Positions 3,694 to 31,920 of a stretch of 36,187 nt of DNA are shown in pieces (within the stretch, counting starts at the first letter, position 1; each line of letters begins with the position of its first letter). This stretch comes from Candidatus Uhrbacteria bacterium (GTDB lineage: Bacteria > Patescibacteriota > Patescibacteriia > UBA9934). Under the pieces are notes generated by a model. It was given only the letters and a program-made list of their open reading frames with translations, was not told the origin of the DNA and ran no database searches. Position numbers and translations under genes: made by a program. The stretch covers positions 1 to 36,187 of the forward strand of contig CALRHE010000007.1 of the NCBI GenBank assembly GCA_943359345.1. Reading direction: 5' to 3'.

Positions 3694-6600
3694 GTGAACA
3701 ATGCTTATCCTAGACTAGTATCGAGATGTTTTGAGTTAATGTTTTTAGTGGTGGTTACCACTCTGGTTTTTTTCGTGTTTGTGACCCACGCACAGGCAGC
3801 TACGATTACTTGGGATGGCGGGGGTGCAACCAACAATTGGTCTGAGGATGCTAACTGGTCAGGCAATGTGGAGCCAGGTACTTCAGATTTGGCTAACTTC
3901 ACTGGCGCCTCAATCAAAGACGCTACCATAGACACGGCCATAAGCGTTCAGGGTATTGACGTCAATGCCGGTTACGCTGGCGGGACTATTACTCAGGCGT
4001 CAGGACAAACTATCAGCATCGGCTCTGGAGATTTTGATATCTCAGCTGGTACTTTTGTGGGCGGTAACAGTGACATCACTACTAGCTCAGCTGGCTCCTT
4101 TACCGTGTCTGGGGGGATCTTTACTTCAACTACAGCCAATTTAACTTTGGGTAACACCTTTACGGTGTCTTCAGGTACTTTTAATGAATCTACCGGTACA
4201 GTGACCGCTACACAAGCTACGCAAATCTGGGATGTAGTCACGACTGAGACTTTTTATAATTTGACGATCAATAAAACTGGTGGAGAAGCGATTACCATGA
4301 GCACTAGCGACACCTTCGTAGTTTTAAATACCCTAACGTTAACGGACGGAGCTATTAATGGAGCTACAGGAGTGATTGATGCTAGAAATGCGATTACCCA
4401 AGGTGGCAACTTTGACGGTGGTACAGCTACCATCAATTTTGGCGACAATGCGGTCAGTCAAACCTACTCGATTAACGGCGGCACAACCCCAGTGATTCAA
4501 CTAGACCACGCCAGTGACGCTAGTGACAGCATTACTATGACAGCCGGAGCTACATTTACGGGTTTAACTATCACTTCGGGCTTTTCAGGAGCTATACCGC
4601 TTAACAACAGTTCTAATTTTACTTTGGTCTTTGCCTCCTGGTCTCAAGCCGCAGGCACCTATGACGCCTCAGCCCAAACGGGTTGGAACATGGTTGATTT
4701 TGATATTTCAGCCGGTACTTTTACGGCTCCAGCTCTAGTAACTGCTACTAGCGTGGCCGCCACCTGGGACGTGAATTCGTCACAAACCTTTACCGCCCTC
4801 ACTATCAATAAAAGTAATACCGTCACTTTGACTATGGGTACCGGTGACACTTTTGTAGTGACTGGCGCCTTGACGCTCACGAACGGCGCAGTCGCCACCG
4901 GTACGCTCGACGCTAGGGGCAGTGTCACCGTGGGTTCATTGTATGACGGTGGTACAGCTACGTTGAATTTTGGAGGCACAGCTACACAGGCTTTTGATTT
5001 GACCGGTGCTACTGGTTTGTATGCTGGTGACATCACCGTCAATAAATCTAGCGGGCAGGTGAATTTGTCTTCCGCTTTGGTACTCGACGACGCAAGTCAG
5101 GATTTGACTCTGCAAGAAGGTAAGTTGAGTTTAGGCGGGCAAGCCCTAACAGTTAACGGTGCTAGCGGAACATTTGTGATTGAAGATGGTGGACATTTGC
5201 AGCTGCAAGGAGCGGAAACCATGACTTTAAACGCCACCTATCCAACTTTAAGTACTGGTTCGACGGTTACCTATACAGGGGACGGAGACAGCGCCACGGA
5301 CACATACACGGTGACTACACTCAAAGCTGTTTATCATCACCTCGTAATTAACTCCACCGATGGGGCTACTGATACTTTTCAATTAGGCGCCGCTCTCGAC
5401 ATCAACGGCAACTTAACTAATACTGCTGGTACCTTTGATGTGAGTGCTTCAAGCCACGCTATCACCTTGGCTGGTAACTGGAGTAACACAGGCACATTTA
5501 ACGGTCGCGCTGGCACTGTAACCTTAGATCCTGATACCAACCACACGTTGACTGGTGATACGACCTGGTTTAGCTTGACTTTACTTGATGCCACCAGCAA
5601 TGCCACGGATGTAACTCTGACGCTTCCAGCCAGCAGCACTCAAACTATTTCTGGTGTACTGACACTTGATGGTTTAGACGAAGATGATCGTCTGAATATT
5701 GTTTCGTCGTCAGCTGGCCTGCGAGGAATTATTACTTTTACTGGCACGGGTAGTTTTGTGGGTAATTATCTGGATATCATTGATAGTACCATCACTGACA
5801 ACTCATCGCTTGTGACCGCACCCGTCATGCCGGCTTCATCCGTCAACCGCGGTAACACTACCCTGTGGTTTAAAAGTTCAAGCTTTATCGGCGGCGTAGG
5901 TAGCGGTAGTCCAACCCTGGAGTTGATTAGCCCTAACGGTGGAGAAATTTTTACGGCCGGAGACAGCATGCTGATTAGTTGGCAGTTATCGGGTATGCCC
6001 TCTAGCCACATTGAGGTTGGTATATCTGTTGACGGTGGCTTAACTTACACGCAGTTAGCTGTAGGTGTAAACGGTTTCGGTAATTTGGCTTTAGTGGTCC
6101 CCGACATGCCAAGTACTACAACTAGATTTAGAATTCAAGGCACCGATTTAATTGTAGTTGCGGCTAGCGACGAGTCTGATGCAGACTTTACCATCTTGTC
6201 GTCAAGCTCGGACGAAGCGTTATCTCTGGACGAGCAGGCCGCTGTGGTTGGTGTTACCGGCCCGATCAATGTAGCTGCGGAGGTGGAACATGCACATAGC
6301 TATATCCGTGGCACAAGTTTCCCCACAGTTTATTACGTTGACGCCAATGGTCGCCGCCATCCTTTTGGAGATGAACTGACATATTTCAGTCACCAAGATT
6401 CCTTTGACTCAGTCATAACAGTTTCCGATGCTGACTTGGCCAATCACCCCATGGGTTCCCCCATGTTGCCTAAACCCGGCGCAGTACTTGTGAAAATTCA
6501 AAGTTTACCTGAGGTTTACTTTGTAACTGAAGATTCTGCCGGTGACTACGAGCTACGTTGGGTACCAGATGAGGCTACGGCTCTGGACTTGTTCGGGCCA

Positions 6601-7001: not shown

Positions 7002-7070
7002 ATTGAGTATAAACAAGTTGGCAAGATAGTAGCTTAAAGCGGGATTTGAGTCAAATGCACATCTACTTAA

Positions 7071-7180
7071 GATATTAGGAATTAGATATTAGTAAGAGTG
7101 TAGAGATTAGATTTTAGATAAGCTGCAGCCGGCCTAACCTCTAAATTCTAAAACCTTACTAATATCTAATTCCTAATATC
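7071..7180. repeat. ATTAG-type palindromic repeat, copy A
   Basis: Perfect 26-bp inverted arms lie at 7071-7096 and 7155-7180, built from TATTAG/AATTAG pentamer-like units, with 58 nt between them containing a GC-rich centre (GCTGCAGCCGGCC). It lies between rpmB and the glycosyltransferase start at 7205. It belongs to a family of five in this window, but is the most divergent in its centre. Confidence 0.85.
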
Positions 7181-7187
7181 TATAAGG

Positions 7188-12100: not shown

Positions 12101-12223
12101 AGGATTAGCAATTAGTTATTAGTCATTAGCAGCTATTAGTGACTAGATATTAGATTGAAACGGTTTGGATCTAATAACTATTTTCTAATTACTGCTAATA
12201 TCTAATTTTGTAATGACTAATCC
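12101..12223. repeat. ATTAG-type palindromic repeat, copy B
   Basis: The left end (AGGATTAG..ATTAGTTATTAGTC) and right end (CTAATATCTAATTTTGTAAT, then GACTAATCC) are inverted and partly complementary: GGATTAG at 12102 pairs with CTAATCC at 12217-12223, and AGTTATTAG at 12114 pairs with CTAATAACT at 12171. The left half matches copy C and the right end matches copy D. Its right end contains the first ATG of the longer uvrB frame. Confidence 0.85.
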
Positions 12224-22576: not shown

Positions 22577-22702
22577 TAGGATTAGAAATTAGTTATTAGT
22601 CATTAGCAGCTATTAGAAAATAGTTATTAGATCCGACCCGTAAGCATCTAATAGCTACTTCTCTAATTACTGCTAATATCTAATTTTGTAATATCTGACC
22701 CC
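22577..22702. repeat. ATTAG-type palindromic repeat, copy C
   Basis: It begins TAGGATTAGAAATTAG and ends TAATTTTGTAATATCTGACCCC. Its left half matches copy B, and its whole sequence reads as the reverse complement of copy D, including the unique centre (GACCCGTAAGCATCTAAT) and the terminal GGGGTCAGATATTACAAAAT. Confidence 0.9.
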
Positions 22703-22716
22703 TTCTACGCCTTCCC

Positions 22717-24210
22717 ATGAAACCCTCCGTCTGGAAACACCAGTTTGAAAACCAAGATCCCATTCTAGTGACTGCTATTACGCAGTTGGCTGAGGCTGTT
22801 TTAGCTTTGGAGCCTGATCACGCCTACGCACCTACCACACCACAGGCTGTCATCGTTGGCGGCTATGTGCGCGACCTCATGCTTGGCACGCGACCAAAGG
22901 ATGCTGACGTTGAGGTTTACGGCGTAGCCCCGGAGAGGCTCAAGGAACTCGTCGAGACACTCTTCGAGCGCGTTGATGTGGTTGGTCAATCGTTCGGCAT
23001 TCTTAAAGTTTTGCTCGAAGGTGGTTTTGAGCTCGACGTCGGTATCCCACGCAAAGAAACCAAGGTCGGCACTGGACACAAAGGTTTTCTCATCGAAAGC
23101 GATCCGAGCATGAGCTTCCGCGAAGCTGCTCGTCGTCGTGACTTTACCATCAACGCTATTGCACTTGATCCACTATCAGGTGTTGTTCACGATCCCTACG
23201 ACGGTATCTCTGATCTTGAGAGCGATAAGCTAAGGGTGGTCGACGAGGCCACGTTTCAGGAAGACCCTTTGCGCGTTTTTCGTGGCTTCCAACTTGCAGC
23301 TCGCCTGGATGCCACTATCGAGCCGAAAACCATGCAATTACTGAAGCAAATGGTAGAGCGCGGCCAACTCGACGAGCTTTCAAAGGAGCGTGTGACCGCC
23401 GAGTGGAAAAAAATGCTCTTGAAAGCTCGCAAGCCGTCTAAGGGTCTCGAGCTCATGCTCGAACTCGGCATTGTCGACAAATACTATCCCGAACTCAAGG
23501 CTCTCATTGCGACACCCCAAGAACCCGAATGGCATCCTGAGGGCAACGTTTGGATTCATACTGGCATGGTTATCGACCAAGCAGCACAGCTGATTCGACA
23601 ACCCGAGCGAGCTCTGACGCACGAGGATGCTTTAATCGTCATGCTCGGCTCTCTGTGTCACGATCTTGGTAAAGCGCTGACGACTAAGGTCGAGGACGGT
23701 CGTATCCGTTCTAAAGGTCATGAGGAGGCCGGCGAGGCTCCAGCTCGGTCATTTTTGGGCAAGTTTATTTTCGGTCATGACTTGACTGATAAGGTCGTCA
23801 AGATCACTAAAGATCATTTAAAGACCACTAAGTATTGGAAGTTATTCACTCACGGCGAGCTCGACGAAAAGCAGTATGCCAACAGTTTGCGACGACTGCT
23901 CCGACGTTTAAAGGGTGTGCCGGTTGAAGTCTTTTTGACCGTCACCGAAGCTGATAAGCGTGGTCGCGGCTTTGAGACTGCGACTACTGATCCGTATACT
24001 GAGGGCGAGGTGTTCCGAGCAGCGCTTATCAAATTTGACCTCGAGCATCAAGCCTGCACGCCACTTTTGAGCGGAGGAGAGCTCGTTAAACAACTCGGGC
24101 TCGAGCCCGGTCCGCGCATCGGCGAGCTAATGAAAGCCATCGAGCAGGCCTGGGATGAAGGCCAAATTCAAACTAAAGATGATGCTTGGGCCTGGGTAAA
24201 TAAAATGTAG
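22717..24210 (+). CDS. cca: CCA tRNA nucleotidyltransferase with HD domain
   Basis: This 497-aa protein has a class II nucleotidyltransferase head: VGGYVRDLMLGTRPKDADVEVYG near residue 47 with the DxD metal pair, then RRRDFTINAIALDP and DPLRVFRGFQLAARL. The middle part carries neck and body helices (ELSKERVTAEWKKML). An HD phosphohydrolase domain follows with NVWIHTGMVIDQA, SLCHDLGKALTT and KGHEEAGEAPA. It adds or repairs the 3' CCA of tRNAs; the HD part suggests an added 2',3'-cyclic phosphatase activity as in E. coli Cca. Both tRNAs in this window already encode CCA, so the role may be mostly repair. Confidence 0.93.
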   Translation: MKPSVWKHQFENQDPILVTAITQLAEAVLALEPDHAYAPTTPQAVIVGGYVRDLMLGTRPKDADVEVYGVAPERLKELVETLFERVDVVGQSFGILKVLLEGGFELDVGIPRKETKVGTGHKGFLIESDPSMSFREAARRRDFTINAIALDPLSGVVHDPYDGISDLESDKLRVVDEATFQEDPLRVFRGFQLAARLDATIEPKTMQLLKQMVERGQLDELSKERVTAEWKKMLLKARKPSKGLELMLELGIVDKYYPELKALIATPQEPEWHPEGNVWIHTGMVIDQAAQLIRQPERALTHEDALIVMLGSLCHDLGKALTTKVEDGRIRSKGHEEAGEAPARSFLGKFIFGHDLTDKVVKITKDHLKTTKYWKLFTHGELDEKQYANSLRRLLRRLKGVPVEVFLTVTEADKRGRGFETATTDPYTEGEVFRAALIKFDLEHQACTPLLSGGELVKQLGLEPGPRIGELMKAIEQAWDEGQIQTKDDAWAWVNKM

Positions 24211-24231
24211 TAATTCTACAAAATCTCCGTG

Positions 24232-24237
24232 TATACT
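24232..24237 (+). promoter_or_regulatory. Candidate -10 of the 24.3-25.7 kb unit
   Basis: TATACT preceded by CCGTG lies just after cca and about 67 nt before the next ATG. No good -35 is visible. Unlike most plus-strand genes here it would give a leader of about 60 nt. Confidence 0.3.
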
Positions 24238-24304
24238 GTGAAGTAATAAACTAGTAAGTGCTGAGCTCGACTCAGCCCAACCTAAGGGCCCTGCCCACAA
24301 ACCT

Positions 24305-25129
24305 ATGAACGAGCAACTGAATCCAGCTCCAACGCCCACACGGCAACCTGTATCAGCACACGGTGACCATCACAGTCACGGCTCATTGCACTTAATTGTC
24401 GGTATGCTCGGCGTTTTGCTAGTGCTTGAAACGATTGTGTTCGGGTATGTGGTAACTCAATACGTTGATTTGCAAAATGAACAAGAGGCTATTCTCGAAA
24501 CACGTGCTGAGGTCGCCGATACCAAGATCGATGGAGAAGATCTTGAGAAACCCATAGCGGCTCCATTTGTTTACGTTAAAGATAATAAACAGGTTGTTAT
24601 AGTTAATCGCATAACTGGCAAGGAGACCGTGGTTTATACCTTTGGAAATACTGGCTTTTCATCTAATCGTATTTTTGCTGTGCCTCAGGTAGGTTTTGAT
24701 GGACGTATCTTTACACACAGTATCGGCGAGAACGATAGGCCGAGTGTTGATCTATCAGAGCTCGATATTACTGTTGATAGCCCTGAACTACAGGTGCCGT
24801 CATTTTTATCTGAATTGCCTTTTAAGAGTAAGGAAGCCACGTTGGTATCGCCGGATCAAACCCATTTGGCAGCGGTCTACTATAATCCTGCCTTTGACGA
24901 AGAGTCGCGTGAGATCGTTATCTGGGATCTGTTAAGTGGCGCGAAAGAGGTGGTCGGAACATTGAACGCCGGCGAAGCCTTTTCTAGACAGCTGGAAACG
25001 CTTGGAGGCGCTGGTGGTTACAATCTGGAGTGGACCAATCTTGATTGCGTCAAAACCTACGTTTATTCCATCAGTGAAACTGGTGATGATAATGACTACT
25101 TAACAACCAGAGAATATTGTAAGAAGTAA
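24305..25129 (+). CDS. Membrane-anchored extracytoplasmic protein of unknown function
   Basis: This 274-aa protein has a His-rich cytoplasmic N-terminus (SAHGDHHSHGS), one membrane anchor (LIVGMLGVLLVLETIVFGYVV, about residues 30-50), a short coiled segment and then a beta-rich domain with PFVYVKDNKQVVIVNR, ATLVSPDQTHLAAVYYN and EIVIWDLLSG. The repeated phrases resemble beta-propeller or TolB-like blades, but there are too few for a full propeller. Two Cys occur near the end. It is followed after 24 nt by a PAP2 phosphatase gene. I do not recognise the family. Confidence 0.6.
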   Translation: MNEQLNPAPTPTRQPVSAHGDHHSHGSLHLIVGMLGVLLVLETIVFGYVVTQYVDLQNEQEAILETRAEVADTKIDGEDLEKPIAAPFVYVKDNKQVVIVNRITGKETVVYTFGNTGFSSNRIFAVPQVGFDGRIFTHSIGENDRPSVDLSELDITVDSPELQVPSFLSELPFKSKEATLVSPDQTHLAAVYYNPAFDEESREIVIWDLLSGAKEVVGTLNAGEAFSRQLETLGGAGGYNLEWTNLDCVKTYVYSISETGDDNDYLTTREYCKK

Positions 25130-25140
25130 GTGACAGCAGG

Positions 25141-25146
25141 TAAACT
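25141..25146 (+). promoter_or_regulatory. -10 hexamer of the PAP2 gene
   Basis: TAAACT ends 7 nt before the ATG at 25154 and fits the close-spaced -10 pattern seen elsewhere in the window. Confidence 0.3.
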
Positions 25147-25153
25147 GTGAACC

Positions 25154-25663
25154 ATGAAAGTCGTTGTTAAGCTCGATCATAAACTGACGAACCAAATCCG
25201 TACCTGGGGTCAGCCCATGTACGGGTTTTGGAATTTTCTGGCTGGCCAGAGTATTGTCATCTATGTGCTCGTGGCGGCGCTGTTTGCATATTTTGGCTAT
25301 CTTGCCCTGGGCTTTTATTTAATCGTGTTTCTGAGTTCATACGTGATCGCTATTCTGCTTCAGCATTTTATTCGGCGCCCAAGACCTAACTTTGAAAAAT
25401 TAACAGGTTACAAAATGTGGATTGAGACCTATTCGTGCCCTTCGGCTCATGCCACTGTGAGCGCAGCCGCGGCAGCGTCACTTGGTCTGCTAACTACATT
25501 TCCAAGTTCCGGTTTAGCTATCATCACGATTGTTTGCTCAATCGGGTTTGCGTTTTTGATCGGTGTTTCACGCATAATCGTTGGGGTCCATTATCTGGGT
25601 GATGTCATGTTTGGCTGGATGCTTGGTTGTGTGATAGCTTTGGGATACGTGATCTTGTTTTAA
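25154..25663 (+). CDS. PAP2-family membrane lipid phosphatase
   Basis: This 169-aa integral membrane protein has all three PAP2 motifs: HFIRRPRP (motif 1, with the usual Lys replaced or shifted), PSAHATVS (motif 2) and SRIIVGVHYLGD (motif 3, catalytic His and Asp). Several hydrophobic helices surround them. Such enzymes dephosphorylate undecaprenyl pyrophosphate or phosphatidic acid outside the membrane; in this envelope-rich context undecaprenyl recycling is the likelier role. The mltG gene follows by 24 nt, so a peptidoglycan link is plausible. Confidence 0.9.
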   Translation: MKVVVKLDHKLTNQIRTWGQPMYGFWNFLAGQSIVIYVLVAALFAYFGYLALGFYLIVFLSSYVIAILLQHFIRRPRPNFEKLTGYKMWIETYSCPSAHATVSAAAAASLGLLTTFPSSGLAIITIVCSIGFAFLIGVSRIIVGVHYLGDVMFGWMLGCVIALGYVILF

Positions 25664-25687
25664 GATAACAGTTAAAAGTTGGGGATT

Positions 25688-26713
25688 ATGTTTAAAGGTG
25701 TTGGGTATTTTAGTATCTGTTTGGTCGTCGTGATTATTGCCATTGTAGCTATCAATCAATGTTCCCGTTATTTTTGGCAAAATCCAGCTAAAGATGCAGT
25801 CGCAGAAGAGTTTGTGGTACAAGACGGGCAAAGCTTTGTGGCGATTGCCCAGGCTCTCGAAGATCAACAAATTATTGCCAACGCTCTGTGGTTTCGCATC
25901 AAGGCAGAGTTGGCTGGGCTGACCGACAAGGTGCAGGCTGGAACCTATATTGTGTATGTGGGCGAAGATTACAAAACCACGCTCGCTATTTTGACGGCTG
26001 GTACGACTGAGGGTATCGATGTGCGTGTGACTATTGCTGAAGGTTTAACGCTCAAGCAAATCGGTGAGCTCCTCGAGACTAAACAACTCGTCACCCAAGC
26101 TGAGTGGGCCGTGGCTACGGGTGTTGACTCGCCGCTTGAGACTCATGAGTTTGTTATGGCTGCTCAAAAGCCTGATGATGTCGACTTGGAGGGTTACTTG
26201 TTTCCAGACACCTATCGCTTCGCATTTAATGCTACGGCCGAAGACATCGCCAGAATTATGCTCGACACCATGGCTGATCGTGTCGGCGATCTAGGTCGAC
26301 CAATCGGTGACGCCGCGACCATGACGACACATGAGATTTTGACACTGGCTTCAATTATCGAGCGGGAAGTGCGTCAGCCGAGCACCATGAAGAACGTAGC
26401 TGATATTTTCTTGAAGAGACTGGATATCGGCATGGCCCTTCAGGCTGACTCGACTGTGAACTACGTGATTGAAGGTGACAGTCCGTCGATTACGCTCGAT
26501 CAACGTGACAATACCGAATCACCTTACAACACCTATAAGTATCCAGGACTTCCGCCTGGCCCCATCAGCGCTCCGAGCGCTAACGCGATCGACGCTGTTC
26601 TGAACCCGACCGCTAACAACTACCTCTACTTCCTGACAACCGACGACGGCGAGATCTACTACGCTGAGACGCATGAAGAACATGTCAGAAACAAAGTTCA
26701 GTATTTGGACTAA
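25688..26713 (+). CDS. mltG: Endolytic murein transglycosylase MltG (YceG)
   Basis: From ATG at 25688 (a TTG at 25679 is the alternative) this gives 341 aa with an N-terminal membrane anchor (FSICLVVVIIAIVAI). The extracellular part has a LysM-like start (FVVQDGQSFVAIAQAL), then IAEGLTLKQIGELL, LEGYLFPDTYRF, LASIIEREV with the catalytic Glu, and ADSTVNYV, SPYNTYKYPGLPPGPISAPS and ETHEEH. MltG cuts nascent glycan strands inside the chain and sets their length. All family motifs are present and the length is normal. Confidence 0.95.
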   Translation: MFKGVGYFSICLVVVIIAIVAINQCSRYFWQNPAKDAVAEEFVVQDGQSFVAIAQALEDQQIIANALWFRIKAELAGLTDKVQAGTYIVYVGEDYKTTLAILTAGTTEGIDVRVTIAEGLTLKQIGELLETKQLVTQAEWAVATGVDSPLETHEFVMAAQKPDDVDLEGYLFPDTYRFAFNATAEDIARIMLDTMADRVGDLGRPIGDAATMTTHEILTLASIIEREVRQPSTMKNVADIFLKRLDIGMALQADSTVNYVIEGDSPSITLDQRDNTESPYNTYKYPGLPPGPISAPSANAIDAVLNPTANNYLYFLTTDDGEIYYAETHEEHVRNKVQYLD

Positions 26714-26739
26714 TATTCGACATTGATCCCGAGCCGCTA

Positions 26740-26767
26740 TTGATTTTTCAAATAAAGCTGGTAGACT
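26740..26767 (+). promoter_or_regulatory. Promoter of the orphan Cys-containing protein gene
   Basis: TTGATT (26740-26745) and TAGACT (26762-26767) are spaced by 16 nt. The leader of about 35 nt carries AGGAG before the ATG at 26809. Confidence 0.5.
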
Positions 26768-26808
26768 CTTGAGTCGACACCCTTCCAGCCGTCGATAGGA
26801 GCAGAGCC

Positions 26809-27222
26809 ATGATGATTATTCTCACCGTTGCTTGTGCCATGCACCGCAGCAAGTTGCCGCAGACCTGCATGAATTCGCCGGGAACTATCGGCCTGGCCGA
26901 CATTCCTATAAGTCCCTGTGCGATGGTGGCTGCGGTTGCAGGAGCCCCTGGCTTTTGTAAGCCAGTGGATGCGACTGAGTACCAAGTCGTCACGTTCAAC
27001 TGGGGAGCGTACCCGGTTGTTGACTACAGGTTCCAGCCTGCAGAAAACGGGTGGATCGCGATCGCAACCAAGGACTGGGTCGAGCCTGGCTCATTGCATC
27101 GTTCCATCATCTTCGTGAGGGCGATGGACATGACCTACGACGTGTCACAGTCGACGATGTCGCCTGGTGACGCCGAAGAGAACGACTGGAGCCTTTGCAC
27201 CAATACCCCTAGGGGCTATTAG
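26809..27222 (+). CDS. Orphan hypothetical protein with five cysteines
   Basis: This 137-aa protein starts with a short hydrophobic stretch (MMIILTVACAM) and contains five Cys, at about residues 9, 20, 37, 50 and 130. The middle has a beta-like stretch with YQVVTFNWGAYPVVDYRF and ENGWIAIATKDW, and the end is polar. The N-terminal stretch is too short for a confident signal peptide, though the cysteines hint at an extracytoplasmic fold. A GGAG ribosome site precedes the ATG, and a promoter and a strong terminator bracket the gene, so it is a single-gene unit. I recognise no family. A minus-strand frame over the same area lacks these signals. Confidence 0.6.
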   Translation: MMIILTVACAMHRSKLPQTCMNSPGTIGLADIPISPCAMVAAVAGAPGFCKPVDATEYQVVTFNWGAYPVVDYRFQPAENGWIAIATKDWVEPGSLHRSIIFVRAMDMTYDVSQSTMSPGDAEENDWSLCTNTPRGY

Positions 27223-27267
27223 CGCTAGACCGTGGTCGCCACAAGCACAGATTCAACCCTTCATCGT

Positions 27268-27304
27268 CGCCACCCCCGGGAGGAGGGTGGCGCGTTCGTT
27301 TTTT
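27268..27304 (+). terminator. Intrinsic terminator of the orphan Cys-protein gene
   Basis: CGCCACCC (27268-27275) pairs with GGGTGGCG (27285-27292) around a 9-nt loop, followed by CGTTCGTTTTTT. Confidence 0.88.
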
Positions 27305-27310
27305 GTACGA

Positions 27311-27316
27311 TAAACT
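27311..27316 (+). promoter_or_regulatory. -10 hexamer of the helicase gene
   Basis: TAAACT ends 10 nt before the ATG at 27327, directly after the preceding terminator. The region is too short to hold a leader. Confidence 0.35.
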
Positions 27317-27326
27317 GTTCGGGACT

Positions 27327-29474
27327 ATGAAGGAATTCGTGCTTTCAGCACCTCTGGCTCCTAAGCTCAACATCAATTACGAGGCTGAGCTTAATGAGGA
27401 GCAGCTGCCAGTGGTTCAGACCGGTGACGGGCCGTGTTTGGTGTTGGCAGGGGCGGGGAGTGGTAAGACGCGCACGGTGACCTATCGCGTGGCGTGGTTA
27501 CTCGAACACGGCATTTCGCCTGAACGAATTTTGCTCCTGACTTTTACGAACAAGGCCGCCAAGGAAATGATTACGCGTATCGAAGTGTTGTTAAAAACGT
27601 ATCCGCAAGGACTGTACGCGGGAACTTTCCACTCCGTCGCCAATCGCTTGCTACGTCAGTACGGTAACCACACCGAGTTCGGGGCGGGGTTCTCTATTCT
27701 CGACGAAGACGACGCGACCGACCTCATGAAGCTGTGCATCAAAGAACAGAAAGTGAATGACATGGGCAAGCGTTTCCCGAGTGCGGCCGTTTTGAAGTCG
27801 ATCTCCTCGTACGCCGCGAACGCTCGTATCCCGCTCGACGAAGCGATCGAACGCAAGAACTCGGCCTTTGCAGATTTCAATCACGACATCACGCAGATCC
27901 TAAAGCGTTACGAGCGCGCCAAGATCGAACAGCGTTCGATGGACTTCGACGATCTTTTGCTCGTGCTTTTGAAATTACTCCAAGACCAGCCAGACATTCG
28001 CGAGCTGCTGGCAGACAAGTTCGCTTACGTCATCGTGGACGAGTTCCAGGATACGAACCTCATTCAAGCCGAGATCGTGAAGTTACTCTCGGGTCGTCAC
28101 AAGAACCTGCTTGTCGTTGGTGATGATGCTCAGAGTATTTATTCATTCCGCGCCGCCGAGATTAAGAATATTTTGAATTTTCCAGATCAATACACCGGCG
28201 CCAAAGTTTTTCGTCTTGTCACCAACTATCGATCTACCCCGCAGATTCTTCACGTAGCTAACGAGGTCATCAAAAACAATGAAGAGCAGTTCTCCAAGGA
28301 GCTCGTAGCTGTTTCAAAGACAGGCGAGTTACCACTGGTCGTGCCGGCAGCTGATCAGCGTCAAGAAGGGCAATATGTAGCCGAGCAGATCGTCGAGCTC
28401 ATCAACACCGGTACGCCTCTACATGAGATCGCCGTGCTCTTTAGGGCGGCTTTTCATTCGCAAGCGGTAGAATTTGAGCTCATGAAGCGAAATATTCCGT
28501 ATGACTACCGTGGAGGTTTAAAGTTCTTTGAGCGCGCACACGTCAAAGACTCGATCGCACATTTGCGTATTCTGCGGAACGTGAAAGACAGCATGGCTTG
28601 GATCAGAGCTTTGCAGATTCACCCCGGTGTCGGTCTTGCGACTGCGGCTAAGGTGGCTGCCTACGCCGCCTCGTTTGAAGATGCCAAGGCAGCTATCGCT
28701 TCGAGTCCGAGTCTTGGAGCCAAAGCTTTACTCGGTTGGCAGCGAGCTACGAAGATCTTATCGGCCATGCTAACGACAGATGGACCGGCACCGGCCTTAC
28801 GAGCTTTTGTGGGTGCTGAAAGTTACAAGGAGTATCTCGAGGCCGAGTATCCCAACTATCGCGATCGTTTAGATGATATCGAACAGTTCAGCGTCTTCGC
28901 CGAACAATACGACGAGATCGGCCCCTTCCTGGACGCCGTGACGCTGACGGGGGATTTTGGTGTGAAGCTGATGGACACTGAGCAACAGGCCTCGCAAAAT
29001 TCTGACGAGGATAAAGTGATCTTATCAACCATTCACCAGGCCAAAGGACTCGAGTGGGACAATGTTTTCATTATCAACCTGGCTGAAGGCGCCTTCCCAC
29101 ATCAACGCGCTTATGGCTCGGACGCTGAGATGTCTGAGGAGCGTCGCTTGTTTTACGTGGCCGCCACCAGAGCTCGCACTAAGCTGTTTTTCACTTATCC
29201 GGTAACTAGTGGTTACGAAACTGTCGAAATTCGCCAGCCCTCGACCTTCCTAGATGAGATTCCAAAGGCCGCTATCGAAACTGTTCGCCTGCGGGCCGCA
29301 CTTCCTAGCTGGGCTCAACCAAGCTACGGTCGACCCACAAACTCGCGACCTTCCCCGGTTCGTGCCTCGAGTGATTCCTGGGATGATGAACCGACGATTG
29401 TGCTCGATGAGAGCGGTGATCGTGTTGCGAAGCCGATGCCGAGCTCATTCTTGCGCGATGTGGATGAGTTGTAG
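27327..29474 (+). CDS. UvrD/PcrA-family superfamily 1 DNA helicase
   Basis: From ATG at 27327 this gives 715 aa; a TTG at 27303 lies in the terminator T-run and is rejected. The Q motif LNEEQLPVV, Walker A AGAGSGKT, motif Ia FTNKAAKEM, motif II VDEFQDTN, motif III GDDAQSIYSFRAA, motif IV NYRSTPQI, motif V TIHQAKGLEWDNVF and motif VI RRLFYVAATRAR are all present in order. It is a 3'-5' helicase that unwinds excised patches after UvrABC and removes proteins from DNA. The C-terminal tail is short, ending in a poorly ordered Ser/Pro-rich stretch. PcrA and UvrD cannot be told apart here. Confidence 0.95.
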   Translation: MKEFVLSAPLAPKLNINYEAELNEEQLPVVQTGDGPCLVLAGAGSGKTRTVTYRVAWLLEHGISPERILLLTFTNKAAKEMITRIEVLLKTYPQGLYAGTFHSVANRLLRQYGNHTEFGAGFSILDEDDATDLMKLCIKEQKVNDMGKRFPSAAVLKSISSYAANARIPLDEAIERKNSAFADFNHDITQILKRYERAKIEQRSMDFDDLLLVLLKLLQDQPDIRELLADKFAYVIVDEFQDTNLIQAEIVKLLSGRHKNLLVVGDDAQSIYSFRAAEIKNILNFPDQYTGAKVFRLVTNYRSTPQILHVANEVIKNNEEQFSKELVAVSKTGELPLVVPAADQRQEGQYVAEQIVELINTGTPLHEIAVLFRAAFHSQAVEFELMKRNIPYDYRGGLKFFERAHVKDSIAHLRILRNVKDSMAWIRALQIHPGVGLATAAKVAAYAASFEDAKAAIASSPSLGAKALLGWQRATKILSAMLTTDGPAPALRAFVGAESYKEYLEAEYPNYRDRLDDIEQFSVFAEQYDEIGPFLDAVTLTGDFGVKLMDTEQQASQNSDEDKVILSTIHQAKGLEWDNVFIINLAEGAFPHQRAYGSDAEMSEERRLFYVAATRARTKLFFTYPVTSGYETVEIRQPSTFLDEIPKAAIETVRLRAALPSWAQPSYGRPTNSRPSPVRASSDSWDDEPTIVLDESGDRVAKPMPSSFLRDVDEL

Positions 29475-29539
29475 TGGATAAGTTTAACTTGACATCAAGT
29501 TTCAGAATGGTGGAGTCTTGTTTTATGCTGGCGATTTTG

Positions 29540-29614
29540 GGCTCGTGGGAGTAAAGGTAACTCCACCCGGATTATCACGAAGGAGTTGTGGGTTCGAGCC
29601 CCATCGAGTCACCA
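29540..29614 (+). ncRNA. tRNA-like locus with degenerate anticodon arm
   Basis: A 75-nt stretch ends in GTGGG-TTCGAGC-CCCAT, a T arm, then CGAGTC-A-CCA. The 5' end GGCTCG pairs with CGAGTC (six pairs, one G-U), and GGAG/CTCC can form a D arm with GG in its loop. The middle (CCCGGATTATCACGAAGGAG) does not form an anticodon stem, and the acceptor is one pair short. A TATGCT hexamer lies at 29524-29529 and a strong terminator follows, so it may be transcribed. It could be a decayed tRNA, an unusual tRNA, or another small RNA. An 8-bp alternative pairing (GGTGGAGT at 29509 with ACTCCACC at 29560) competes with the cloverleaf. Confidence 0.4.
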
Positions 29615-29638
29615 GGCTTAAAGCCAGTCGCCGGCTCC

Positions 29639-29670
29639 GCCAAACCCCGCACAAGCGGGGTTTTGGCTTT
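29639..29670 (+). terminator. Intrinsic terminator after the tRNA-like locus
   Basis: GCCAAACCCCGC pairs with GCGGGGTTTTGGC (one bulged T) around ACAA, and is followed by TTT. It could end either the helicase transcript or a separate small RNA. Confidence 0.88.
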
Positions 29671-29743
29671 ATGAAATCTACACCTAGCTTATGCTAGTAG
29701 ATTGAGATAGCGGTGTTTGAATAAAGATTTTCAATTTCTGCGG

Positions 29744-29749
29744 TATAAT
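29744..29749 (+). promoter_or_regulatory. Consensus -10 at the 29756 gene
   Basis: A perfect TATAAT ends 6 nt before the ATG at 29756. The expected start site coincides with the start codon, so this mRNA should be leaderless. Confidence 0.5.
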
Positions 29750-29755
29750 AGTTCA

Positions 29756-30346
29756 ATGAACCGGCATTATCGCAAATCACGACGTAGCCGTTTGTCCCGC
29801 AGTGCGGGTAAACTTTTCCCGAGCATCGCGCTTGTGATCATCGGCTGTGCCGGCTTCTATCTGGCCATGCAATGGTTTCGTGGTGACGCCGAAGACGCAC
29901 CGGTCCAGGCTCAAGAGATTGTGACTGAAGGAGTCGAGGGGATTGTACCAATCACGACAGCGAGCTCGAACATTGACACTGAGATTTTGAAAACTGAAGA
30001 ACTGTCCGCGCCGCTGGTTTCAGCATTTGACGGACAACACACTGGCCGCATCCAACGTTATCTTACAAAAAATTCAGCTGACATGGTTGTCTTAGCATAT
30101 TTACCAGCCCTTGACATGGCGGCTGATTCGTATCATGTTTGGCTCCTCAAAGACGGTCTGGCCGACGTCAAAGATATGGGCCAGCTAGCTCCAAGAGCTG
30201 ATGGCAGTTGGGTTCTAAATTTCACAGCTAGTCCTTCGACCGGTATTGTTGATCCCAGCGTCTACAAATCAATTGTGATCATGCGTGAACCAAACGATGG
30301 CAACCCTGCTCCGTCGGGACATAGGATTGCCGAGGCAAAGTTTTAG
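29756..30346 (+). CDS. Membrane-anchored protein of unknown function
   Basis: From ATG at 29756 this gives 196 aa; a TTG at 29717 would lie upstream of the -10. The N-terminus is strongly basic (RHYRKSRRSRLSRSAGK), then one membrane segment (LFPSIALVIIGCAGFYLAM) and an extracytoplasmic domain. The last 100 residues (MVVLAYLPALDMAADSYHVWLL, then VLNFTASPSTG and VIMREPNDGNPAPSG) look like an anti-sigma K/RskA-type C-terminal beta domain, whose typical features are YxVWLL-like and EPxxGxxxPxG phrases. No sigma-factor gene is adjacent, so an anti-sigma function is doubtful. Confidence 0.55.
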   Translation: MNRHYRKSRRSRLSRSAGKLFPSIALVIIGCAGFYLAMQWFRGDAEDAPVQAQEIVTEGVEGIVPITTASSNIDTEILKTEELSAPLVSAFDGQHTGRIQRYLTKNSADMVVLAYLPALDMAADSYHVWLLKDGLADVKDMGQLAPRADGSWVLNFTASPSTGIVDPSVYKSIVIMREPNDGNPAPSGHRIAEAKF

Positions 30347-30357
30347 AACTCGTAGCA

Positions 30358-30492
30358 GGGGTCAGATATTACAAAATTAGTCATTAGCAGCTATTAAAGA
30401 ATAGATATTAGTAGAGTCATTAGATGCTTACGGGTTGGATCTAATAACTAATTACTAATGACTGCTAATATCTAATTTTGTAATGACTAATA
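30358..30492. repeat. ATTAG-type palindromic repeat, copy D
   Basis: ATTACAAAATTAG (30368-30380) and CTAATTTTGTAAT (30472-30484) are perfect inverted ends. The left end GGGGTCAGATATTACAAAAT and the centre ATTAGATGCTTACGGGT are the reverse complement of copy C. The right end matches copy B. It stops about 13 nt before the ugd start. Confidence 0.9.
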
Positions 30493-30505
30493 CTATATAT
30501 TCGGT

Positions 30506-31784: not shown

Positions 31785-31901
31785 GGATTAGTCATTACAA
31801 AATTAGATATTAGCAGCTATTAGAGAAGTAGATATTAGAACCACTCCGTACACCTCTAATTACTAATTTGTAATGACTGCTAATATCTAATTTTGTAATT
31901 T
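31785..31901. repeat. ATTAG-type palindromic repeat, copy E
   Basis: Perfect 23-bp arms at 31794-31816 and 31877-31899 (ATTACAAAATTAGATATTAG-type and its complement) enclose a centre with CACTCCGTACACC. It starts 1-2 nt after the ugd stop. Confidence 0.9.
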
Positions 31902-31920
31902 CTGAATTTTCGGCTATCTA

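Follow-up and report, generated by a model that had tools for sequence, protein, structure and literature searches.

Dispersed ATTAG hairpins in a Candidatus Uhrbacteria genome are probably gene-less copies of a small element carrying an S23 gene

The 36,187-nt stretch of Candidatus Uhrbacteria DNA analysed here (the window: contig CALRHE010000007.1 of assembly GCA_943359345.1, positions 1 to 36,187 of the forward strand) contains five ATTAG hairpin elements, two of which, copies C and D, had been singled out in an earlier note on this DNA. Copy C (22579 to 22702) lies between gpmI and the gene of a CCA-adding tRNA nucleotidyltransferase, and copy D (30358 to 30493) between a small open reading frame (ORF, 29717-30346) and a UDP-glucose dehydrogenase-type gene (30506). 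Both are gene-less, and the centre shared by the family places C on the reverse strand, opposite to D on the forward strand. The strings quoted for them are present, with TAATATCTGACCCC forming the end of C (to 22702), GGGGTCAGATATTA the start of D (from 30358), and GACCCGTAAGCATCTAAT and ATTAGATGCTTACGGGT lying inside C and D, respectively. Their opposite orientation was confirmed, as C aligns to D with a score of 48 in reverse and 33 in forward orientation, and a repeat search paired the two copies as inverted arms of 58 nt at 88% and 56 nt at 86%.

The reverse complement of C and the forward strand of D have in common the centre ATTAGATGCTTACGGGT[C/T]GGATCTAATAACT, identical at 30 of 31 nt. 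Their 18-nt loops agree at 17 positions, a match equalled by none of 20000 shuffles, and the loop is self-complementary at just 6 of its 18 positions and thus non-palindromic. These figures do not bear out the refutation that the note itself had proposed, a match arising from low-complexity ATTAG composition, and we therefore attribute the resemblance to common descent. The description of C and D as reverse complements of each other holds for the centre and the loop and fails over the full length because one arm differs: one arm of D contains additional bases, and the far arm of C is of another type (ATTAGTTATTAGTCATTAG versus ATTACAAAATTAGATATTAG). Nor is the centre unique to these two copies, since an element elsewhere in the same genome (G000:C1:23269) carries the same one and related centres are found throughout the family.

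The distribution of the family lends good support to the claim that a mobile process duplicated C and D. A BLAST search with D of the genome to which the window belongs (G000, a 97.8% complete assembly of 732 kb and 24 contigs) gave 48 matches that were merged by eye into 20 places. Two of these places form the arms of a single larger element, which makes 19 dispersed ATTAG elements. No match was found in the other 94 of the 95 genomes searched (E 1e-4), four congeners included. The family centre has a single orientation across 16 aligned copies. All 18 sites examined, namely 17 small elements and a gene-bearing one, are intergenic and mostly within 20 nt of an ORF, and the small copies of the window occur in both orientations. 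The copy left out of this count opens contig C24 (G000:C24:1-125, L008), and the assembly may have been interrupted at this repeat. The note had suggested a look for empty sites in related strains as a check. Three congeners share the gene order around D (ORF209 - UDP-glucose dehydrogenase), and the gap between the two genes, 159 nt here, measures 5 nt in G004, 13 nt in G001 and 91 nt in G002 when taken from tblastn match ends; the exact insertion junctions are unreadable because the dehydrogenases are merely 37-48% identical to those of the congeners. For C, congener G003 is weak as an empty site because its gpmI-cca gap of ~106 nt (L076, about 1068-1173), devoid of ATTAG, holds another imperfect hairpin, GACGAAGG...CCTTCGTC.

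A gene-bearing member of the family lies outside the window, at G000:C8:1251-1713, where left and right ATTAG arms enclose an ORF of 120 aa that starts a few bases past the left arm and extends with its stop into the beginning of the right arm. A non-palindromic loop of ~20 nt takes the position of this gene in the small copies. The encoded protein belongs to the S23 four-helix-bundle (“23S rRNA intervening sequence”) family, matching PF05635 with 131 bits (cut-off 33.8, 2e-38) and TIGR02436 with 123.6 bits (cut-off 24, 4e-36), and its match to the Avd model NF033474 is weak (32.6 bits, cut-off 80, 7.5e-8). Structures of relatives have been solved (PDB 2rld and 2gsc, the latter, XCC0516, being the best solved relative at 9.5e-39). 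Across 108 S23 proteins, N50, E53 and G54 are invariant and Q39, R42, S46, R57, S73 and E76 are conserved in at least 95%, a pattern that hints at a functional centre.

The genome encodes four PF05635 proteins in total, on contigs C8, C6, C12 and C9, and all four genes are flanked by inverted arms built of short units that differ from locus to locus: NNATTAG at C8, GTAGACN at C6, GTTGACN at C12 and an ~8-nt GGGGTTA-type unit at C9. Three successive GTNGACN units are matched 27 times in the genome, compared to 3 matches for the reversed control pattern, and the heptads of C6 and C12 recur without S23 at nine further places, among them palindromes (L220, L211) as well as solo clusters with 3-4 units. 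Contig C6 also carries a diversity-generating retroelement (DGR; 4721-5350, L085) with a 371-aa reverse transcriptase (RT), an Avd gene (NF033474, 89.5 bits) and target-like ORFs nearby.

Among the S23 genes examined, the association with such arms extends as a tendency to many phyla. We collected 113 loci, comprising 29 from relatives, the four described above and the best 80 of 577 confirmed in a scan of bacterial genomes; our own S23 profile located the gene in 109 of them, and 107 had sufficient flanking sequence. Self-identity of the flanks at a lag of 7 nt was 0.41 both upstream and downstream, as opposed to 0.28 in the flanks of control ORFs (n=274/246), and at a lag of 14 nt it was 0.39 and 0.37. 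Heptads were significant (p<0.01, Markov shuffles) in 56/107 upstream and 44/107 downstream flanks, on at least one side in 70 loci and on both sides in 33, whereas the first 107 controls gave 7 and 8. Complementarity between the two flanks had a median of 20 at S23 loci and 10 at control ORFs (n=223), with 51/107 loci above the 99th percentile of the controls. The tandem units, of 7 and sometimes 8 nt, are specific to each locus: the similarity between upstream unit and inverted downstream unit averaged 0.61 within a locus and 0.44 between loci, and the own downstream unit ranked in the top 5% of partners for 65/108 loci. S23 genes share their orientation with both neighbours in 68/89 cases compared to 47/77 for control ORFs (p 0.04), a modest excess to which the control reduced an apparently strong sense-orientation bias (74/98). 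In the survey material we also noted that plasmids 1 and 2 of Calothrix brevissima NIES-22 (L166 and L167) have near-identical S23 regions, with GGGTGTA heptad arms beside a phage-integrase-type gene.

Viral contigs, in which S23 occurs at 24 loci, show in one family that arms and gene are present or absent as a unit. Positions 1-1451 and 1875-3232 of contig L172 match L198 at 91-92%, and the intervening 423 nt (1452-1874), an arm-S23-arm cassette, are replaced in L198 by ~2 nt. The cassette occupies the same place in L173 and L174, and the same flanks are found without it in five contigs (L196, L197, L198, L200 and L201). Elsewhere, L173 contains a small palindrome that is built of these heptads and has no gene. 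A search of phage records for S23 gave no match. Plasmid pANA02 of Anabaena sp. 90 (L168) carries an S23 cassette with a left heptad array of ~300 nt in a type I-D CRISPR operon, where it separates cas6 from cas4; the gap at this place measures 23 nt in a plasmid of Nostoc UHCC 0302. The plasmid of Dolichospermum UHCC 0315A was dropped as the partner of Anabaena sp. 90 in a clean empty-site pair because a different palindromic insert (GTAGGTTGGGTTGA...) sits in its cas6-cas4 gap (L194 near 1923-2168).

We consider it probable that the hairpins of the window are gene-less copies, similar to miniature inverted-repeat transposable elements (MITEs), of a tiny selfish element with the layout arm-S23-arm. 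S23 would be its mobility factor: the protein, pentameric in the crystal structure of a homolog, would bind the heptad arrays, either as duplex or as extruded hairpin, and promote the copying of hairpin DNA into intergenic gaps by host replication or repair enzymes, serving gene-less copies in trans. Hairpin-templated correction, as known for quasipalindromes, could keep the arms matched and would fit the occurrence of like units in both arms of an element.

An S23-dependent route through hairpin DNA is favoured over other routes because the cassette fits S23 alone, because no Y1 transposase was found, and because 9/35 S23-positive genomes are without an RT. The last count bears on an RNA route, as may apply to the intervening sequences (IVSs) of rRNA genes, in which a host RT, for example that of the DGR, would copy the hairpin transcript into DNA for insertion, with S23, a relative of Avd, acting as RT partner. 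The single RT and adjoining Avd gene of this genome, the weak match of S23 to the Avd model and the same-sense excess of S23 genes are all compatible with such a route, yet the PF05635-positive genomes without PF00078 include G040 (8 matches, 100% complete), G011 (3) and G015 (4), which disfavours an RT acting in trans, and the small copies of the window lie in both orientations; we regard it as quite unlikely. Palindromic intergenic elements with GGGGTCAG-like ends, which we take to resemble the REP type, also recall repetitive extragenic palindromic (REP) sequences or bacterial interspersed mosaic elements, whose mobility depends on a Y1 (RAYT) transposase. This explanation was rejected as extremely improbable, the 97.8% complete draft of G000 giving no PF01797 match.

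It is unlikely that the hairpins are ordinary MITEs that retain just the ends of a conventional DNA transposon, with an enzyme that has disappeared or was overlooked and with S23 as a passenger between the arms. Their size and terminal inverted repeats would suit a short multi-copy element lacking a transposase, and the genome-wide enzyme search covered just PF01797 and PF00078, so that a DDE or serine enzyme may have escaped it. The ATTAG ends are common to an S23 gene cassette. Against this reading, many unrelated bacteria have S23 between similar arms built of units, arms and gene are present or absent together in viral contigs, and no target duplication is evident. If the hairpins functioned between genes as attenuators, terminators or sites of mRNA processing, and owed their persistence to selection and their spread to recombination, this would explain why they fold strongly and why every site examined lies between ORFs and mostly close to one. 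We think this very unlikely given their absence from 94 relatives, their two orientations, the gene-bearing version and the many heptad families. A static Rfam element was discarded as well, since an Rfam scan of the window gave tRNAs only.

Several observations weigh against arm-S23-arm elements mobilized by S23. No transposition event was observed, and to our knowledge no enzymatic activity has been demonstrated for the S23 family. The one clean present/absent junction (L172/L198) has no evident target-site duplication, ~2 nt being replaced, and cassette-free contigs were found for one of the six viral families tried and for none of the other five. By our own measure 37/107 S23 loci have no significant heptads, and 56/107 miss the strict cut for complementarity. 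Several ATTAG arms taken singly fail a period-7 test (right arm of C, p 0.59; left arm of copy E, 0.32; right arm of C8, 0.43), and covariation between protein and heptad is weak (r 0.15 over 53 loci with a clear unit, reached by 2/500 permutations). AGGTNNN clusters, which exceed the control in the S23-positive genomes G011 (26/1), G013 (41/4), G009 (8/1), G018 (8/3) and G015 (5/4), fall below it in S23-positive G012 (13 vs 19); they number 55 in G007 and 19 in G005, neither of which has a PF05635 match, and 0-1 in the other seven of nine S23-negative genomes. The clusters of G007 and G005 could reflect either another mover or a lost S23.

Dispersed heptanucleotide repeats have been known from other bacteria, the cyanobacterial STRR being one example. 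Others, according to passages of PMC4692102, are GGGAATC in Xanthomonas, with 186 repeats and 70 inverted pairs in X. campestris, and GGGGA(T/C)T in Nostoc, for which generally no association with mobile elements is reported there; passages of PMC4679880 add TAACTGA repeats in Beggiatoaceae and cyanobacteria. These repeats resemble the arms described here in being tandem 7-nt units scattered intergenically, and differ in that the same passages name no S23 partner for them. S23 proteins, for their part, are common four-helix bundles with solved structures. The text available from PMC4990558 describes them as of no known function and reports that the 23S rRNA IVS of Coxiella burnetii is bounded by inverted repeats and contains an S23 ORF preceded by variable heptameric repeats; a 1993 idea cited there holds that the IVS ORF serves mobility. 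A survey of the candidate phyla radiation, in the part available, places the same S23 protein in rRNA insertions. Like these IVSs, the C8 locus has complementary arms around one S23 ORF, and the length of the Coxiella example (428-444 nt) is close to the 423 nt of the L172 cassette. IVSs are described in rRNA genes in those sources, whereas the present elements are free-standing, intergenic and multi-copy, have gene-less derivatives and use a locus-specific unit. An Rfam search of 40 of the collected loci, the four of G000 included, found no rRNA, so none of the S23 loci scanned is an rRNA IVS.

As far as the text available from PMC10969869 goes, MITEs are likewise small non-autonomous inverted-repeat elements; the gene-bearing partner found here is instead without a recognised transposase. 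Avd of DGRs, as presented in the available part of PMC10053308, has the homologous four-helix bundle fold, but the C8 protein scores far higher to TIGR02436 and fails NF033474, and its cassette is without RT or template repeat. No link of free-standing S23 genes to heptad arms or dispersed repeats was found in the open literature (titles, starts of abstracts and passages, subscription papers being outside this scope), and the connection between free-standing S23 cassettes, heptad arms and gene-less copies appears to be new.

More tentatively, as a possibility that we rate somewhat below even, there may be a widespread class of transposase-free prokaryotic elements in which an S23 protein of ~120 aa recognises inverted arrays of 7-nt units and spreads them via hairpin DNA. 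Such a class would leave gene-less palindromes and solo heptad clusters behind, and would bring rRNA IVSs, S23 genes of no known function and the heptanucleotide repeats scattered through cyanobacterial and Xanthomonas genomes into one system. The arm-S23-arm layout, found in many bacteria, may account for short-repeat families that are so far unexplained. If S23 moves heptad arms, the element would be among the smallest mobile elements, with a protein unlike any known transposase, and two puzzles, the function of S23 and the heptanucleotide repeats catalogued without a mobile partner, would become a single testable system.

The remaining hairpins of the window are copies A, B and E. Copies B and E belong to the family of C and D. 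Copy B (12102 to 12223, forward strand) lies upstream of uvrB, and copy E (31785 to 31908, reverse strand) in the gap that separates the UDP-glucose dehydrogenase-type gene from a LOG/lysine-decarboxylase-like gene. Folded as single-stranded DNA with DNA parameters, all five window copies form strong hairpins, with z from -4.7 to -9.5 (C -4.7, D -8.4, B -6.0, E -7.5). The lowest value, -9.5, belongs to copy A (7070 to 7181, forward strand), an ATTAG hairpin with 48-nt arms that represents a sister subfamily with two more full copies in the genome, at C5:24141 and C4:11863 (87%).

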